Below are positions 6,720 through 17,132 of a stretch of 40,880 bases of DNA, one piece after another (positions within the stretch are counted from its first letter, which is position 1; every line of letters begins with the position of its first letter). Source of the DNA: Terriglobales bacterium. Lineage in GTDB: Bacteria > Acidobacteriota > Terriglobia > Terriglobales > Acidobacteriaceae. The notes below the pieces were generated by a model. That model was not told the origin of the DNA. It made no database searches and was given only the letters and a program-made list of their open reading frames with translations. The position numbers were made by a program, and so were the translations under genes. The stretch is from the NCBI GenBank assembly GCA_025934735.1, contig JAICWP010000032.1, positions 1 to 40,880 on the forward strand, in the 5' to 3' direction.

Positions 6720-7394
6720 ATGAAATCTCGTCTATTTGCAATGCTTGCAATTTCCATGCTGGTGCTGGCGGGCAGCGCCGTGGCCGCCGACCAGATCAGC
6801 GGCGATTACATTGAAACCCGCAGCGCCGATGTTTGGACCGGGCCCTGCTTCGCCAACGGCGAAGTCGGCCTGAACGGCCAGGAAGCTATCCTGGCATGGC
6901 ACGTGCAGCGCGGCGCCTGGAACAATGTCAGCCTGGCTGGCCACAGCGTCGTGGCGGTGGTGCGCGCCAACGCTACCCTGGGCGATCCCTATGCCGATCC
7001 CTATCCCGCCAAGGCCATCCTGATTGTGGATGATGCAGCCACTCCGCAGCAGCAGGCCGCGCTCAGCGCCTTTGCCCGTCACATGGGCGGCAAGCTGCTG
7101 GCCAATGTGGAACGCGTGGTCGCCGCGCCGGTGGACTTCGCGGTATTGCGCGACCATGAGCACCACGGCGCCGCCTTCTTGCGCGCCGGCAGCTTTGTGA
7201 CCGTGCAGACCCGCGGCCTCAATGACAAGGATCATTTCTGCGGAAATGAGCACACCTATTACCCGCCGCTCACCGAAACCGCGCATGCTATGCCGGTGGT
7301 GGCCATGACGGACAGGTACCAGGGCGGCGACCTGGGCGAGTCCTGGGAACTCCACGACAAGCGCAGCGCCTTCGTCGGCACCTTCGCCCGCTAA
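6720..7394 (+). CDS. Secreted DUF1326-like protein
   Basis: 224 residues. The signal peptide MKSRLFAMLAISMLVLAGSA is cleaved near VAA (residues 21-23). The mature protein starts SGDYIETRSADVWTGPCFAN, which fits the DUF1326 family, where the N-terminus carries a strand and a conserved Cys. Later segments include LIVDDAATPQQQAALSAFAR and, near the end, KDHFCGNEHTYYPPL. The function of DUF1326 is unknown. The start is supported by GAGGAG about 8 bases upstream. It appears to be a single-gene unit: a hairpin terminator follows at 7415. Confidence 0.8.
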   Translation: MKSRLFAMLAISMLVLAGSAVAADQISGDYIETRSADVWTGPCFANGEVGLNGQEAILAWHVQRGAWNNVSLAGHSVVAVVRANATLGDPYADPYPAKAILIVDDAATPQQQAALSAFARHMGGKLLANVERVVAAPVDFAVLRDHEHHGAAFLRAGSFVTVQTRGLNDKDHFCGNEHTYYPPLTETAHAMPVVAMTDRYQGGDLGESWELHDKRSAFVGTFAR

Positions 7395-7414
7395 ACCTCC
7401 TTACCAATGCGCAG

Positions 7415-7452
7415 GCGCGGAACTCCCCCAAGCTCCGCGCTTTACCTTTTCC
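7415..7452 (+). terminator. Probable intrinsic terminator after the DUF1326 gene
   Basis: GCGCGGA (7415-7421) can pair with TCCGCGC (7434-7440) around a 12-base loop, followed by the broken T-tract TTTACCTTTT. It starts 20 bases after the stop codon. The stem is short and the T-tract is interrupted, so confidence is moderate. Confidence 0.5.
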
Positions 7453-7580
7453 GTAACTCTCCAGAGCAAGATCAAGTTCCCCAGGGATGAACGTACGAGC
7501 AACCCATTGAACATTCACAAAAGGGCCGCTGTCTCCTGAGTCCTGCCTTCTGGTTTTCTCATCTTGTAAACTAAGGACTT

Positions 7581-10079
<2,499 letters not shown>

Positions 10080-12416: not shown

Positions 12417-12779
12417 TTAGTCGCGCTTCTTGCGCAACAGTTGCTCGATCCTTCGCAACAGCACGTCAGGACTGCGCGTTTTACTTACCCACCCATCCAC
12501 CAGGCCGGTTAGATCCGCCGGAAAACTGGAACTAAAAGAGATAGCCACCAGACGCGGGCTGGGATGCGTTTTTCTAATTTCGGCGGCCACCCGCCGCGCC
12601 TCCGCCGCGCTGTAGTCCAGCAGCACAAGATCAATGTTCTCGGCCCGCAGCAGTTCTTCAGCAGCGTCCTCGCCCGCCGCCGTGAGCACCCGGTAGCCCT
12701 CATGTTCCAACAGCAACTGGCGCACGTGCAGCACCACCGGCTCATCGCTCACGCACAGGATGGTTTTGGGAGTGGCGAT
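12417..12779 (-). CDS. Stand-alone response-regulator receiver domain protein, possible ATC start
   Basis: About 120 residues, one CheY-like receiver domain without an output domain. The fold starts at TPKTILCVSDEPVVLHVRQL (acidic pair Asp-Glu), the phosphoacceptor Asp is in IDLVLLDYSAAEA, the Ser/Thr switch in VAISFSSSF and the Lys in GWVSKTRSPDVLLRRI. No in-frame ATG is available. A strong GGAGG (12786-12790) sits six bases before an in-frame ATC (12779), which is the best-placed start. In-frame GTG, TTG or CTG codons further upstream (to 12842) are the alternative. It lies just downstream of the MNIO partner gene and could be cotranscribed with it. Confidence 0.8.
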   Translation of the reverse strand: MATPKTILCVSDEPVVLHVRQLLLEHEGYRVLTAAGEDAAEELLRAENIDLVLLDYSAAEARRVAAEIRKTHPSPRLVAISFSSSFPADLTGLVDGWVSKTRSPDVLLRRIEQLLRKKRD

Positions 12780-12865
12780 CGTTAACCTCCGTCGATTCCA
12801 TAACTTACATGTCAGCCTACACACCTGCCCCAAGCCTCGCAAGGACGAGCCCCAGAAGTTTTGGC

Positions 12866-13612
12866 CTATTTTTCAGACGAAGTGAGCACGGCGCCGATTT
12901 GCGCCAGCGCTGCCAGGCTCTGCTCTACCCGGGAGGCGGGAAGCGACACCGCCTGGGCAATGGCGGCCGGATTGCTCTGGCCGTCCACCGCATGGAAAAC
13001 CGCGACAATAGTGTCGTCCACCCCCACCACGTAGATGCGGCCATGTGGCGTGCGCGAGAAGAGCAGCGTGATCTCCTGGCGCAAGTCGTCGTTGATAGCC
13101 TCTTCCGCTTTCAAACGAAGCAAGAGATCCGGCAGATTCCAGGAGAAGCGGCGGCACCGGGCGCTGGCAGCCGCCTGGGGAACCTGGCATGCAGTTCCGT
13201 TTTCACTGGTAGCGGCTTGCAGGAAAAACGCGCGTTCGTATTCCAGCAGGTCGCTCCACCCGGGCCCGGGAACGGCGGAACCGTTCAGGAAACTGACTAC
13301 CAATTCGCCCACGCGCTCTGCCGCGGCCAGGGAACCAAGCGCGCAGTCATTCAGGAAAGCATCGAACTCCGGCGCATCCACGATGGACTCCGCGGCGGGG
13401 CCAACGCGGCGGGAGTAGCGGAAAGAGCGGGCCAGGCGGTCGCGATAATAGCGGCGTGCCAGGAAACGTGCAAATTTTCCTGCGCGCTGTGCCTGTTCCG
13501 GCGAGAGCGGCAGGGAGTGTGCGGCAGTGCGGCGCAACTCCGCGTCGGAAAGATAAGTGATCAAGGCGTCCTGCAGGTCACGGTCTGAGCGAATTGTGAT
13601 CGGTTGCTTCAT
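12866..13612 (-). CDS. Probable MNIO partner protein (RiPP recognition/partner subunit)
   Basis: 248 residues, starting 21 bases after the DUF692 gene, so the two are almost certainly cotranscribed. The N-terminal half is helical (DLQDALITYLSDAELRRTAA; LARRYYRDRLARSF; FDAFLNDCALGS). It is followed by SDLLEYERAFF, which resembles the conserved L-x-x-Y-E element of MNIO partner proteins (HvfC/BufC/TglI-type). The C-terminal 90 residues look like a winged-helix or PqqD-like unit: TIVAVFHAVDGQSNPAAIAQ, then SLPASRVEQSLAALAQIG. Such partners bind the precursor peptide and bring it to the oxidase. The family call rests on architecture and context rather than on a clear motif. Confidence 0.7.
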   Translation of the reverse strand: MKQPITIRSDRDLQDALITYLSDAELRRTAAHSLPLSPEQAQRAGKFARFLARRYYRDRLARSFRYSRRVGPAAESIVDAPEFDAFLNDCALGSLAAAERVGELVVSFLNGSAVPGPGWSDLLEYERAFFLQAATSENGTACQVPQAAASARCRRFSWNLPDLLLRLKAEEAINDDLRQEITLLFSRTPHGRIYVVGVDDTIVAVFHAVDGQSNPAAIAQAVSLPASRVEQSLAALAQIGAVLTSSEK

Positions 13613-13633: not shown

Positions 13634-14446
13634 TCACACCTGAAAAGCGGAACGCGTGGCCTCCACGGCACGCAGGAGCACGTCCATGGTTAGGCTGGGT
13701 GCAAAGGCGTCAAAGGTAATGGCGCGCAGCCCGGGCGCGCGCTCGGCCACCCACAGCGCTAAGTTGAGAATTTCCTGCGTGGGCTGCGTGGGCGCAATCC
13801 ATGGCCCTTCCAGGTCTCGGTCCTGTTCCACTCCCGCCACATGCAACTCCACCACTTTGTCCAGAGGGAAATCCGCCAGATATTCGCGGGGCGAGCGTCC
13901 GGAGTAATGCGCCGCCAGCCAGATGTGCGGCAGGTCGAGCAGCAGGCTGCAACCGGTCTGATCAAAAAAGCGCCGCAGGAATTCCGCTTCCGTCATCTGC
14001 GCGTAATCGAGCGCAAAGAAACCAGGAATGTTCTCCATCACAAGGGGCGCCGTCACCGCGTCGCGCAGCACGCAGGCATTGGCCACAAAGCGGCTCAGGA
14101 ACTCTTCCGTGTAAAGCGGGGGGAAAACGTAATCCAAAGTGCGGCCGCCGTCCTGGGTGTGCAGGCACTGAAAATGTTCGGCCACCCAGGGGCCGCGATA
14201 CATCTCCTGCAAATTCCGCGCTCGCGCCAGCGCAGGTTCGCTGAGCGGGTCCGAAAGCTGTCCCAGGTAATCGTGCAGCAGCAGGGGAAAGCGGTCACGA
14301 ATGCAGGGAAATGCAAGATCGTCGCGGGCTGGAGGATCGGCCATGGACAAGTGGTCCACCACGCCGGCGGATTGCAGCAGCGACTCCGCTAAGTGCGGAT
14401 TGTAGAAAGCGCCGACCGAGAGCCGGCCTTCCACCATCGTGGGCAT
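13634..14446 (-). CDS. DUF692 / multinuclear non-haem iron oxidase (MNIO), RiPP-modifying enzyme
   Basis: 270 residues, TIM-barrel DUF692 family. MNIOs (MbnB, TglH, ChrH and others) use two or three iron ions and O2 to rework Cys (or Asp/Asn) in ribosomal peptides. Family elements seen: LLLHDYLGQLSDPL (His58), PWVAEHFQC (Glu90, His91), PLVMENIPGFF (Glu138, Asn139), TGCSLLLDLPHIWLAAHY (Asp171, His174) and VVELHVAGV (Glu200, His202). Two usual late motifs differ: the Asp-Thr-His segment reads GPWIAPTQP, and the usual Glu-Trp-Asp reads Thr-Phe-Asp (244-246). The ATG follows a T-rich stretch and has no SD, so translation may start weakly. It lies 83 bases after the peptide gene. Confidence 0.88.
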   Translation of the reverse strand: MPTMVEGRLSVGAFYNPHLAESLLQSAGVVDHLSMADPPARDDLAFPCIRDRFPLLLHDYLGQLSDPLSEPALARARNLQEMYRGPWVAEHFQCLHTQDGGRTLDYVFPPLYTEEFLSRFVANACVLRDAVTAPLVMENIPGFFALDYAQMTEAEFLRRFFDQTGCSLLLDLPHIWLAAHYSGRSPREYLADFPLDKVVELHVAGVEQDRDLEGPWIAPTQPTQEILNLALWVAERAPGLRAITFDAFAPSLTMDVLLRAVEATRSAFQV

Positions 14447-14529: not shown

Positions 14530-14661
14530 CTAGTGGCAGGTGGGCGCGACTTCAGCCGCTTCCACCAGCTTGAATTCGGCATGGCAGGTGGGGCTGACTT
14601 CGGCGGTCTCTACCAGTTTAAAGTTGGCATGACAGGTGGGGCTGATTTCGCTGGTTTCAAC
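14530..14661 (-). repeat. 2.75 tandem 48-base units inside the peptide gene
   Basis: Units occupy 14614-14661, 14566-14613 and 14530-14565 (last one cut by the stop codon). Differences between units are mostly at third codon positions (TGT/TGC, TTT/TTC, AAA/AAG, CAT/CAC). So the peptide, not the DNA, is being conserved, which supports a translated and selected gene. Confidence 0.85.
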
Positions 14662-14670
14662 AATCTTCAT
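14530..14670 (-). CDS. Three-repeat Pro-Thr-Cys-His peptide, candidate RiPP precursor
   Basis: 46 residues, read directly from the sequence. ATG at 14668-14670 has a near-perfect AGGAGG (14676-14681) five bases upstream; the stop is TAG at 14530-14532. After MKIV the peptide is two full 16-residue units and a shortened third: ETSEISPTCHANFKLV, ETAEVSPTCHAEFKLV, EAAEVAPTCH. Cys-His pairs are at 13/14, 29/30 and 45/46, so the peptide ends in Cys-His. There is no separate leader peptide: the whole protein is repeat. It is the first gene before an MNIO gene and its partner, and MNIOs act on Cys in short peptides, so this is very probably their substrate. The product is unknown. Metal binding or a thiol-derived heterocycle are reasonable guesses. 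Confidence 0.88.
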   Translation of the reverse strand: MKIVETSEISPTCHANFKLVETAEVSPTCHAEFKLVEAAEVAPTCH

Positions 14671-14788
14671 CACATCCTCCTGTGAGCGCATTGCGGCTCA
14701 CTGTCACTAGATGCAGAAAGCGAGAAAGAGTAGCACGCGCGGAGCAGTTTTTTTGCACCGCAACCGGAGAGGGCGCATCTGCAAGTAT

Positions 14789-15727
14789 ATGGAAAGCGGG
14801 CAGAAACTGGCCATTGACGTGCTTCTGCGCGAATCCCAGATTGCGGAGCAGTTGCAGCAGGCTTTCGGACGCCGCTTTCTGGACGAAAAATTCTTTTACT
14901 GGCTGCCGCCTTCGGTGCAGGCCTGGGTGGAGCTCACGCGCTCGGCGGAATATCGCAATTCCAACCGCGCGCTGCAGGTCCTGAGTGCTAACGCGAACAG
15001 CTTCGTGCGCATGTGGCCGGAGGCGCAGTGCCTGTGCAGCCTGGGGTGCGGCGAAGGCAGCAAAGACCGCATTCTGCTGCGCGCCTACGCCGAAGCGGAC
15101 AAGGCGCTCGACTATGTCGCCGCGGATTTCAGCCAGGCGCTTTTGGAGTTGGCGCTGACCGGTGTCGACTCCACGGTGCGCTCGCGGCGCGGAGTTAAAT
15201 TCGACGTATCCGACGATGCCCACCTGCAGGCGCTCAGCCAGGGCGGCCCGGCAACCATCTATGCCGTGCTGGGCAACACTCTAGGCGCGTTCGGCCCACT
15301 GCATTTTCCCGCCCGTCTGCGGGAAATCATGGGGACGGGTGACCGCGCCCTTTTTGACGGCGAAGTATTCGATGAAGCCACCACGCTCCAGGGTTACGAC
15401 AATCCCACCAACCGCCGTTTCGCTTTCGCGCCACTGGCCGGTATGGGCCTCACCGAACGTGATGGCAAGCTGCACTTCGAGTTGCGGCGCGGCAGCGGCG
15501 GCGTCCACGAAGTCACTAAATTCTTTGTCGCTGCGCACGATTTGGAAGTGCGAGTGGCCGGGTCGGTCCTGCACCTGCGGACCGGCGAGGAGATTCTCAT
15601 GAGCAGCTCCATCAAATACGATGAAGATGCGTTTTATCCGCTCATCGAAAATGGCGGCTTCATGATCGAACTGGCCGCCAAAAGCGAAGACGGGAAGTTC
15701 CTGCTCGCCGGCACACGGCCGCGCTAG
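14789..15727 (+). CDS. EgtD-like histidine-specific SAM-dependent methyltransferase
   Basis: 312 residues from ATG 14789; a frame from 14711 would add 26 basic residues that look unlike the family. The fold is that of Methyltransf_33/EgtD, which trimethylates the alpha-amino group of L-His to hercynine. The family N-terminus FLDEKFFYWLPPSVQAWVEL is present, then SAM motif I CSLGCGEGSKDRI (83-95), DYVAADFSQALLELAL (108-123), IYAVLGNTLGAFGPLHFPAR (157-176) and a C-terminal SSSIKYDEDAF followed by ENGGFMIEL. The C-terminal His-binding Glu of EgtD, usually in a T-E-x-S-x-K-Y/F segment, is Ser here by eye, so free His may not be the substrate. It is divergent from the PTCH-peptide operon, sharing about 118 bases of upstream DNA. 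Confidence 0.85.
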   Translation: MESGQKLAIDVLLRESQIAEQLQQAFGRRFLDEKFFYWLPPSVQAWVELTRSAEYRNSNRALQVLSANANSFVRMWPEAQCLCSLGCGEGSKDRILLRAYAEADKALDYVAADFSQALLELALTGVDSTVRSRRGVKFDVSDDAHLQALSQGGPATIYAVLGNTLGAFGPLHFPARLREIMGTGDRALFDGEVFDEATTLQGYDNPTNRRFAFAPLAGMGLTERDGKLHFELRRGSGGVHEVTKFFVAAHDLEVRVAGSVLHLRTGEEILMSSSIKYDEDAFYPLIENGGFMIELAAKSEDGKFLLAGTRPR

Positions 15728-15812
15728 TTAACCGCGGAGACACAGCGGCACATAGAGTTCTGAAGAAGGAATAGGACATTCGCCGTGTCTCAGTGTCTCT
15801 GTGGCTAATTAA
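15727..15812. repeat. Imperfect inverted repeat between convergent genes
   Basis: The arms TTAACCGCGGAGACACAGCG (15728-15747) and, on the other strand, TTAGCCACAGAGACACTGAG (about 15790-15809) face each other across about 45 bases. The element lies exactly between the convergent stop codons of the EgtD-like and arsM genes and overlaps the arsM stop. It is the CCGCAGAGACACAGAG type of intergenic element common in acidobacterial genomes. It can form a long hairpin and may serve as a two-way terminator. Confidence 0.6.
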
Positions 15813-16612
15813 CGTTTCCGCCCGTGGAGCTTGGCGGAGACCACCGCCCGGGCCGCTTCCGCGAGCGGCGAAGTGCCGCAGCAACCGCCGCCGGGCTGCG
15901 ACAGCTCCAGTCCATAGGCCTCGCCCAGTTTTTTCGAGCCCGTGATCTGCGGGATGGCCAGGTCGTCGAACCCGGCTTCCATCGCCATGCTCAGGTAATC
16001 GGTGAGCAAGCTGGCGCCCGCGATGCAGCCCACATAGGCTTCCACATCGCGCGTCACTTCGGCTGGCAATGGCCGCAACAGCACCAGGTCGCTCACGGCG
16101 AAGCTGCCCCCGGGCTTGAGCACGCGATAAATTTCGCGGAACACGGCAGGCTTATTGGTGCTCAGGTTAATGACGCAGTTGCTGATCACCAGGTCCACGG
16201 AGCTGTCGTCCACGGGAAGCGTCTCGATCGAGCCTTTGCGGAACTCGACGTTCGTAGCGCCCAGTTCGGCGGCATTCTTGTGGGCCAACTGCAGCATCGG
16301 GTCGGTCATATCTACGCCAATCACCTGTCCCTGCGGGCCAACTTTGCGCCACGCCAGAAAAGCATCGAAACCGGCGCCGCTACCCAGGTCAAGCACGGTC
16401 ATCCCCGGCTCAATGGCGGCCAGGGCCAGGGGATTGCCGCATCCCAGGCCAAGATTCGCCTGGCCGGCGACTTTGAGCTCTTCGGAGGAGTATCCAATGA
16501 TGCGGGCGACATCGGCCACATCGCCGCTGCCGCAACCACACCGTTTGCCTTCGGCTATTTCGGAGTAGTGCTGGCGCACGCTCTCCAGGATGGTGGACTC
16601 AGTGTTGGCCAT
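15809..16612 (-). CDS. arsM: Arsenite S-adenosylmethionine methyltransferase
   Basis: 267 residues from ATG 16612, chosen because GAGGAAG lies 5 bases upstream; a longer frame starts at 16654. ArsM methylates As(III) with SAM. Seen: SAM motif VLDLGSGAGFDAFL (73-86), NLGLGCGNPLAL with Cys58, LVISNCVINLS with Cys146 and YVGCIAGASL with Cys196. These match the three conserved arsenic-binding cysteines of the family. Extra Cys pairs are at 25/27 (RCGCGSGD) and in a C-terminal GGGCCGTSP. The start overlaps the end of the MarR-type regulator gene by 14 bases, so the two are cotranscribed. Confidence 0.92.
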   Translation of the reverse strand: MANTESTILESVRQHYSEIAEGKRCGCGSGDVADVARIIGYSSEELKVAGQANLGLGCGNPLALAAIEPGMTVLDLGSGAGFDAFLAWRKVGPQGQVIGVDMTDPMLQLAHKNAAELGATNVEFRKGSIETLPVDDSSVDLVISNCVINLSTNKPAVFREIYRVLKPGGSFAVSDLVLLRPLPAEVTRDVEAYVGCIAGASLLTDYLSMAMEAGFDDLAIPQITGSKKLGEAYGLELSQPGGGCCGTSPLAEAARAVVSAKLHGRKR

Positions 16613-17132
16613 GGTTCTTCCTCTTTTCTGCGGCGCGCGTTGGGCGCCGGTCAAGGCTGCAGGTGAATGACATATCCGCTCCCTCGCCCTGGACCTGGCA
16701 GCAGCCGCCGGGCTCCAGCGCCTGGTTAAGCAGGCGCACGGCGGCCAGCAACTGCGGCTGCAAGCCGGGGGGGAACGCAGAGAGAATGGTACGGGTGCGC
16801 TCTAGCATGAGCTGGTCAATTTTTCCGCGCACCTGCCGGCCATGCTGGGTGATGGCCACGCTGGCAGCGCGTCCATCCTTGGCGGCGCCGCGGACGCGTT
16901 TCACCAGTTGCCGCGCTTCCAGCTTCTCCAACACACGGGTCAGGGCGCTGGGAGAGATGCCGGCAGTGGTGGCCAGGTCTGAAAGGCGCGCGCCCTCGCC
17001 GGCCGACAGAGTGCGCAGAATGCCGCATTGCCGGGTGGTCAGGCCCTCGCAGCACACTTCATCCGGACCCACGCGGCCTAGCAGGCGGGAAAGGCGTTCG
17101 AGTTCTTGCGACCAGTGTTGCAGATCCTGCAT
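16599..17132 (-). CDS. Cysteine-rich MarR-family regulator of arsM
   Basis: 177 residues. The winged helix-turn-helix is at about 45-110: GARLSDLATTAGISPSALTR, then VLEKLEARQLVKRVRG and a wing KDGRAASVAITQHGR. Cysteines cluster at 27/28/36 (EVCCEGLTTRQCGIL) and at 144/145/158 (GGCCQVQGEG, then FTC), outside the DNA-binding part. They could bind As(III) or another soft metal. The gene is 20 bases downstream of a perfect palindrome that is its likely operator, which suggests autoregulation of marR-arsM. Sensing of arsenite is inferred from arsM and the cysteines. Confidence 0.88.
   Translation of the reverse strand: MQDLQHWSQELERLSRLLGRVGPDEVCCEGLTTRQCGILRTLSAGEGARLSDLATTAGISPSALTRVLEKLEARQLVKRVRGAAKDGRAASVAITQHGRQVRGKIDQLMLERTRTILSAFPPGLQPQLLAAVRLLNQALEPGGCCQVQGEGADMSFTCSLDRRPTRAAEKRKNHGQH

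Follow-up and report, generated by a model that had tools for sequence, protein, structure and literature searches.

A 46-residue peptide encoded in the window, the 40,880-nucleotide stretch of DNA from a Terriglobales bacterium that was analysed here, is almost certainly the precursor for the MNIO enzyme encoded beside it. The best overall explanation, to which we assign a probability of about 0.55, is a RiPP precursor built of recognition-plus-core units that would be acted on by the MNIO, its partner protein and an EgtD-like methyltransferase. Sequence comparison provides the basis for this reading: a conserved repeat unit that changes in copy number, linkage of the unit to the MNIO, partner and EgtD-like genes and, in a sister clade, a TGA codon at the Cys position together with a hairpin and a tRNA-Sec gene. 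Combined, the Cys-His or Sec-His unit and its enzymes point to an undescribed sulfur/selenium-histidine natural product pathway. The original prediction, made from the DNA alone, is supported in part; it recognised the repeat peptide and the MNIO gene but missed the conserved EgtD-like gene, the betaine-type importer of the relatives and the Sec form. The features of the window on which the analysis rests are the following.

12866..13612, minus strand: MNIO partner of 248 aa (PME type 2 / ApyI- and TglI-/NGO1945-like), RRE-bearing by fold, 21 nt past the MNIO gene
13634..14446, minus strand: MNIO of 270 aa (DUF692/PF05114, Pfam match), 83 nt downstream of the precursor gene and on the same strand
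14530..14670, minus strand: precursor peptide gene encoding MKIVETSEISPTCHANFKLVETAEVSPTCHAEFKLVEAAEVAPTCH, 46 codons plus TAG, start ATG at 14670
14629..14664, minus strand: precursor unit 1, IVETSEISPTCH, codons TGT CAT
14581..14616, minus strand: precursor unit 2, LVETAEVSPTCH, codons TGC CAT
14533..14568, minus strand: precursor unit 3, LVEAAEVAPTCH, codons TGC CAC, then the stop TAG
14676..14681, minus strand: AGGAGG ribosome-binding site, from sequence, 5 nt 5' of the precursor ATG
14711..15727, plus strand: EgtD-like SAM-dependent N-methyltransferase (PF10017), divergent from the precursor, its open frame beginning 41 nt beyond the precursor ATG

The peptide consists of three V-E-x-x-E-[VI]-x-P-T-C-H units and two AxFK spacers, with no leader, and its frame, coordinates and sequence are as first described. 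Three ETxExxPTCH units had been predicted and three units are present, but the third reads EAAEVAPTCH and lacks the ET start. When shifted by 16 residues the peptide matches itself at 23 of 30 positions, whereas the mean best score among 20,000 shuffles is 5.1 and none reached 23. The AGGAGG site that had been proposed is found in place, and GGAG-type sites also lie 5' of many of the homologous precursors. Neither a signal peptide nor a hydrophobic N-terminus is seen by eye in the 46 residues, and the peptide is single-copy in its own genome. Membership of a known precursor family was rejected, as no Pfam or NCBIfam profile matches the 46-residue peptide above its cut-off; three Pfam zinc-finger matches, the best with E 0.036, are sub-threshold.

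The expectation that codon differences between units are mostly silent holds in raw counts for units 2 and 3 (7.7 silent and 3.3 non-silent changes) but not for units 1 and 2 (4.5 and 6.5) or units 1 and 3 (6.2 and 9.8). Calculated per site, silent change exceeds non-silent change in all three pairs of units (pS 0.52-0.77, pN 0.10-0.30) and also between orthologues, with pS 0.51 and pN 0.10 among nine three-unit peptides (36 pairs) and pS 0.27 and pN 0.05 among twelve two-unit peptides, which supports the proposal that the peptide is under selection, here at the protein level. Units 2 and 3 differ at 0.77 of their silent sites, indicating that the units of the window are old.

The MNIO scores 98.6 bits against PF05114 (cut-off 25), and no second PF05114 match at E 0.001 is present in the same genome. 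TglH is described, in the available part of PMC10880893, as binding iron through His71, His107, Glu151, Asp184 and His216, with Asn187, Asp229 and His231 as third-iron ligands. Five of the six Fe1/Fe2 ligands are kept in the window enzyme as H58, H91, E138, D171 and H202 (TglH H71, H107, E151, D184 and H216) and are invariant in 24 of 24 aligned rows, the alignment covering 24 of the 42 MNIO sequences and leaving the counterpart of TglH E258 unplaced. The Fe3 ligands N187, D229 and H231 correspond to His, Pro and Ile. Foldseek comparison of the predicted partner structure (mean pLDDT 92.7) gave TglI (8hi7/8hci, E 4e-6) and then NGO1945 (3dee, E 1.6e-3) as top matches, with VIA Z of 12.4-12.9 and rmsd of 4.5-9.3. 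As its predicted fold best matches TglI and NGO1945, the protein is assigned to the RRE-bearing kind of MNIO partner; no DUF2063 match is detected at E 1. The partner alignment comprises 25 of 40 sequences. Directly after the partner gene lies a single-domain response regulator (12417-12842, minus strand), for which a search of 32 other loci gave no match.

Homologous loci were collected by scanning genome contigs with the MNIO as query, giving 29 loci, 27 of which contain a visible peptide; with the window and L063-L065 from three more genomes, 31 peptide-bearing Cys loci result (L and G labels are our own for loci and genomes). L031, L032 and L035 come from genomes that are also labelled G067, G117 and G003, and each of these enters the counts once. 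The two loci with an MNIO but no visible peptide, L055 and L057, are excluded from the 31; L057 begins at a contig end, and upstream of the L055 MNIO only the end of an aldo-keto reductase (AKR) gene is recognisable. Unit number differs among the Cys loci, with three units in 11 Acidobacteriota, two in 19 Gemmatimonadota and four in one Gemmatimonadaceae, and the unit consensus is [ILV]-V-E-x-x-E-[VL]-x-P-[TS]-C-H. Across the 75 units of the 31 loci Pro and His are kept in all and Cys in 74, encoded by both TGT and TGC for Cys and both CAT and CAC for His. The exception is the first unit of L065, where Ser (PTSH, codon AGT) replaces Cys, and one unit may be decaying there. Apparent frameshifts or partial deletions affect the assembled MNIO genes of L058 and L059, in which the peptide is intact. 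Counting units in homologues had been suggested as a check, and since unit number varies (2, 3, 4) and the P-x-C-H unit is kept, the peptide is interpreted as a multi-unit precursor which adjoins the MNIO gene and, in the window, carries no separate leader. Among 200 relatives, the peptide (E < 1e-15) is found in 7, the MNIO in 8 and an EgtD-like gene (at least 40% identity) in the same 8. The eighth MNIO genome, G136, contains the Sec form, so that a small precursor accompanies the MNIO in all eight.

Upstream of the MNIO in G136 the frame reads MEDDKKMIDLLPEEALVERESLVPT-TGA-CAC-TAA, placing TGA exactly at the Cys of PTCH. The MNIO is present in 6 of 40 genomes of the same order (76-100% identity), and all six, G136 included, have the same TGA arrangement. 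Searching the phylum (396 genomes) yielded, besides the window's own, three further genomes, from other families, whose MNIO is 53-59% identical to that of the window, and all three show the TGA. Thus all nine loci of this sister MNIO clade encode one unit, LVPT-TGA-CAC-stop, next to an intact MNIO, and are represented by the following feature.

L077:9326-9444, minus strand, with L114-L121: Sec-form precursor loci, PT-TGA-CAC-stop plus downstream hairpin

The original prediction had named a broken frame beside an intact MNIO gene as the observation that would count against it, and in form this is what the 9/9 sister-clade loci present, an in-frame TGA at the Cys; we read this TGA, however, as Sec and not as a dead frame. 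CAC follows the TGA in 9/9, and the subsequent stop is TAA in six, TAG in two and TGA in one, variation indicating that it is kept as a stop and not as letters. The last 12 codons change more at silent than at non-silent sites (pS 0.49, pN 0.21), and, with start codons assigned by eye, about 7-16 extra residues precede the unit in the Sec forms.

A hairpin with the core CCGGCU-5 nt-[AG]GC[CU]GG lies 3' of the TGA. Its 10-pair structure has 90% of cells paired, compared with 82.7% after shuffling and 0 of 500 shuffles as high, and structures slid along the alignment pair only 17-48%. Three pairs are changed on both sides, each in one sequence; the 6-bp upper stem is paired in all rows, and the 4-bp lower stem is unpaired in about two of the eight distinct rows. 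A model of the hairpin finds the nine Sec loci at 32-46 bits, these being its own training set, and its best other match in 42 sources scores 16.5 bits. Folded as single sequences, 7/9 loci give the hairpin as their best structure, G351 does so in part and G217 does not, and the G136 z-score is -2.2 or -1.2 depending on the stretch. An Rfam search of the nine Sec loci returned no SECIS family match and nothing else relevant.

ARAGORN confirms a tRNA-Sec (anticodon UCA) in 8/9 Sec-form genomes; none was found in G225, which is 66% complete, and neither SelA nor SelB was recognised by eye in three short tRNA-Sec flanks. The tRNA is also found in 24 of the 26 genomes reached by the loci (4 Acidobacteriota and 22 Gemmatimonadota, the L055 and L057 genomes among the Gemmatimonadota), in G000, in 5/6 other f1 Cys genomes and in 5/7 genomes that lack this MNIO. 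The Sec reading requires this tRNA, but its occurrence in genomes without the MNIO means that it is no distinguishing mark of the Sec form. Loss of Sec decoding as the cause of the Cys forms was rejected, as the window genome and most of the tested Cys genomes have tRNA-Sec. The homologous Cys, the conserved hairpin, CAC with a varying stop and the tRNA-Sec in 8/9 genomes combined suggest that the TGA of the sister-clade precursors is very probably read as selenocysteine. In the MNIO tree, a branch with 100/100 support separates Sec rows from Cys rows. The tree covers 36 of 42 loci, six Acidobacteriota Cys rows without the exact string GAFYNP being left out, and, being midpoint-rooted, the tree fits either direction of the Sec/Cys change.

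The EgtD-like protein scores 72.7 bits against PF10017 (cut-off 23), its homology beginning near 14789-14807, and no other PF10017 match at E 0.001 is detected in the same genome. Such a gene accompanies the peptide in 38 of 40 loci (11/11 Acidobacteriota Cys, 19/20 Gemmatimonadota and 8/9 Sec loci), both misses falling at contig ends; these and the other neighbour counts record a match within the locus and do not require adjacency. The strand of this gene differs between the two forms: where found, the gene runs opposite to the peptide in the window and the other Cys loci and shares the MNIO strand in all eight Sec loci, directly after the partner gene in seven. Its distance from the peptide reaches about 1.7 kb in L035. 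An ordinary ergothioneine operon was rejected, as the protein reaches 62.5 bits against the ergothioneine EgtD equivalog cut-off of 290.9, and the best EgtB match in the own genome is 81.6 bits against a cut-off of 360. At the positions aligned with Glu282 and Asn166 of EgtD, the window protein has Ser and Ala, respectively. In the relatives inspected, the first of these positions is occupied by Ser, Asn or, in one case, Gly, and the second by Ala, Ile or Val. Judged by these replacements, the substrate of the EgtD-like enzyme may be other than free histidine. Four Acidobacteriota genomes among the 200 relatives that lack this MNIO have EgtD-like genes at 33-36% identity (L096-L099), a sister methyltransferase, and a fifth has one at 26% identity. 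An arsenite methyltransferase (arsM) gene with a MarR-type regulator (15809-17132, minus strand) adjoins the EgtD-like gene in the window, and an arsM relative (46%) is also near the cluster in L054.

Importer genes accompany the cluster in many relatives. At 50% identity or more, the importer ATPase has a match in 15/20 and the permease in 16/20 Gemmatimonadota loci, those in L044 being several kb from EgtD. Among the Sec loci the corresponding counts are 7/9 and 6/9, the misses falling at contig ends, and at this identity neither gene is present in any of the 11 window-type loci. Five of six f5 loci (L077, L117, L119, L120, L121) encode peptide, MNIO, partner, EgtD-like protein and ABC ATPase on one strand, followed by the permease where the contig continues. 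The L118 contig ends inside the EgtD-like gene and that of L116 soon after it; EgtD-like, ATPase, permease and binding-protein genes precede the peptide in L114. Binding-protein frames are present in L114, L117, L037 and L115; the two scanned match OpuAC (PF04069, 187-206 bits), and the L117 protein is related to the OpuBC, ProX and EgtUC structures. All four read GSKNF by eye, and the F of this motif, which probably corresponds to Gly244 of EgtU, would place Phe there instead of Gly. PMC9732360 describes Phe in place of Gly244 in the glycine-betaine protein AfProX.

Other neighbours differ between clades. An aldo-keto reductase is encoded between peptide and MNIO in 18/20 Gemmatimonadota loci (e.g. 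L037:4857-5981). The C-terminal 70 aa of the three AKRs scanned score below cut-off as PqqD-like (17.1-21.8 versus 23.4 bits), and the enzyme is perhaps a ketoreductase which binds the precursor itself; the best 50 Foldseek matches to the AKR structure model cover its aldo-keto reductase part, and the alignment comprises 9 of 21 sequences. Between the MNIO and partner genes of L037 lies an LssY_C-domain protein (6783-7976; PF14067, 135 bits), and in eight further Gemmatimonadota loci an interval of about 1.2 kb separates these two genes. No protease gene was noted among the neighbour genes inspected.

We propose that each repeat unit would consist of a recognition stretch and a core. The MNIO and its RRE-bearing partner would engage each unit by way of its V-E-x-x-[E/S/N]-[L/V] stretch, with the partner presenting the unit; a recognition site within every unit is plausible, nearly all units, the single-unit Sec form included, having V-E-x-x-x-[LV]-x ahead of the core. 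The MNIO would oxidise the Cys, or Sec in the sister clade, beside the invariant His, proteolysis would free a His-derived product, and the EgtD-like enzyme would then N-methylate an amine of that product to give an S- or Se-containing, probably betaine-type small product. At many loci outside the window's family the quaternary-amine ABC importer would take up this product or a relative. We infer the modification itself, Cys/Sec-His as its site, the order of the steps, the proteolytic release and the identity of the product. The interchange of S and Se at one residue beside an invariant His, the EgtD relative and the frequent betaine importer suggest, tentatively, a thio- or seleno-histidine betaine as the product. 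A more specific and equally speculative route is ribosomal: the MNIO might transfer the S or Se of Cys or Sec to the neighbouring His while this is still part of the peptide, and the modified His, once excised, might be trimethylated by the EgtD-like enzyme to ergothioneine, selenoneine or an isomer without EgtB or the selenoneine pathway enzymes SenA and SenB. On this route, two to four Cys cores would have taken the place of a single Sec core in the Gemmatimonadota and in one family of Acidobacteriota, unless the exchange ran the other way.

The main alternative is a metallophore or metal-buffer peptide, a short leaderless cousin of the bufferins and oxazolins, in which the MNIO makes a Thr-Cys thiooxazole (a selenooxazole in the Sec form) that forms repeated Cu/Zn sites with the His, the EgtD-like enzyme N-methylating the peptide or an accessory amine. 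We regard it as a conceivable but doubtful reading. According to the accessible sections of PMC12452194, copper is chelated by bufferins, and the number of repeated Cys motifs varies among the EGKCG/oxazolin precursors of MNIOs; unit number varies here too, and a His beside the Cys would suit metal binding. Chemistry of this kind has precedent in the radical SAM enzyme SbtM, which makes a thiooxazole from Cys and, as reported in the available part of PMC11002830, also removes four hydrogens from a Sec substrate. However, the precursor has no signal peptide by eye and the partner no DUF2063 match, a single Sec core would seem a poor metal buffer, and the conserved EgtD-like gene and the betaine importer are left unexplained.

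Two narrower objections concern parts of the proposed pathway. The TGA loci might be dead or truncated precursors ending in VPT, with the Cys repeat peptides as the only substrates, as TGA is a stop in the standard code and the putative SECIS hairpin is not the best single-sequence fold in G217. This is very improbable in view of the identical TGA-CAC-stop arrangement with its differing stops in 9/9 loci, the conserved hairpin with pairs changed on both sides, the excess of silent change over the last 12 codons and the tRNA-Sec in 8/9 genomes, as well as the presence of both MNIO and partner in 9/9 loci and of the EgtD-like gene in 8/9. That the EgtD-like gene is an unrelated neighbour, the pathway comprising MNIO and partner only, is an unlikely proposition of a similar kind: the opposite strand in the window and Cys loci, the related genes standing alone in 4/200 relatives and the distance in L035 would fit it, but the gene is kept in 38/40 loci of two phyla, joins the MNIO strand in every Sec locus where it is found, next after the partner in seven, and has no PF10017 paralogue at E 0.001 in the own genome. 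There is a strong likelihood that the EgtD-like enzyme belongs to the peptide pathway.

If correct, the proposed pathway would represent a family of MNIO RiPPs whose natural substrate includes selenocysteine, and its genes would constitute a natural experiment in which one Sec core is set against two to four Cys cores. MNIO chemistry would be linked to a methyltransferase of the EgtD type and, among many relatives, to a betaine importer as well. The pathway would also provide a small expressible system, a peptide and three enzymes with a Cys form that needs no Sec machinery, for the handling of S versus Se by an iron oxidase, and the same system could show whether thio- or selenohistidines form on a ribosomal template. 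MNIO RiPPs are already known, as is a Sec-containing RiPP precursor for the radical SAM enzyme SbtM (PMC11002830, available part). None of the adjamnio families described in the available part of the MNIO landscape paper (PMC12452194) equals the Cys/Sec-His repeat family, and among the open-licence PMC papers listed for MNIO with EgtD, selenocysteine, selenoneine or ergothioneine, no title or abstract describes it.

The closest NCBIfam profiles are those of the aminopyruvatide system (ApyA/ApyH/ApyI), with ApyH best for the MNIO (100.5 bits, cut-off 400) and ApyI best for the partner (22 bits, cut-off 200). Both systems combine an MNIO, an RRE-bearing partner and a small precursor, but the window peptide ends in His, having no C-terminal Asp, and is distinguished by repeated Cys/Sec-His units and an EgtD-like gene. 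The pearlins (TglA, TglHI; 3-thiaglutamate) share the MNIO with a TglI-like partner, a Cys target and, perhaps, a small amino-acid product that is set free from a peptide; here, in contrast, the Cys is genetically encoded, followed by His and repeated. Sec likewise looks native here, whereas the Sec analogue of TglA-Cys that inhibits TglHI is synthetic (PMC9016710, available part). Bufferins and EGKCG oxazolins are also MNIO substrates, the oxazolin type with repeated Cys motifs of varying number, but their signal peptides and mostly DUF2063 partners are not seen here. The SbtM thio(seleno)oxazole RiPPs resemble the Sec form in having a natural TGA/Sec precursor with an insertion element directly downstream and in the processing of both Cys and Sec substrates, but SbtM is a radical SAM enzyme and not an MNIO, and the available part of PMC11002830 describes neither an EgtD-like gene nor a PT(C/U)H repeat. 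Within the ergothioneine and selenoneine pathways, an EgtD-family methyltransferase and the joining of S or Se with histidine are the points of likeness, and the importer of the relatives is of the class that includes the ergothioneine importer EgtU; in the system proposed here, unlike those pathways, the S or Se would come from a ribosomal peptide.
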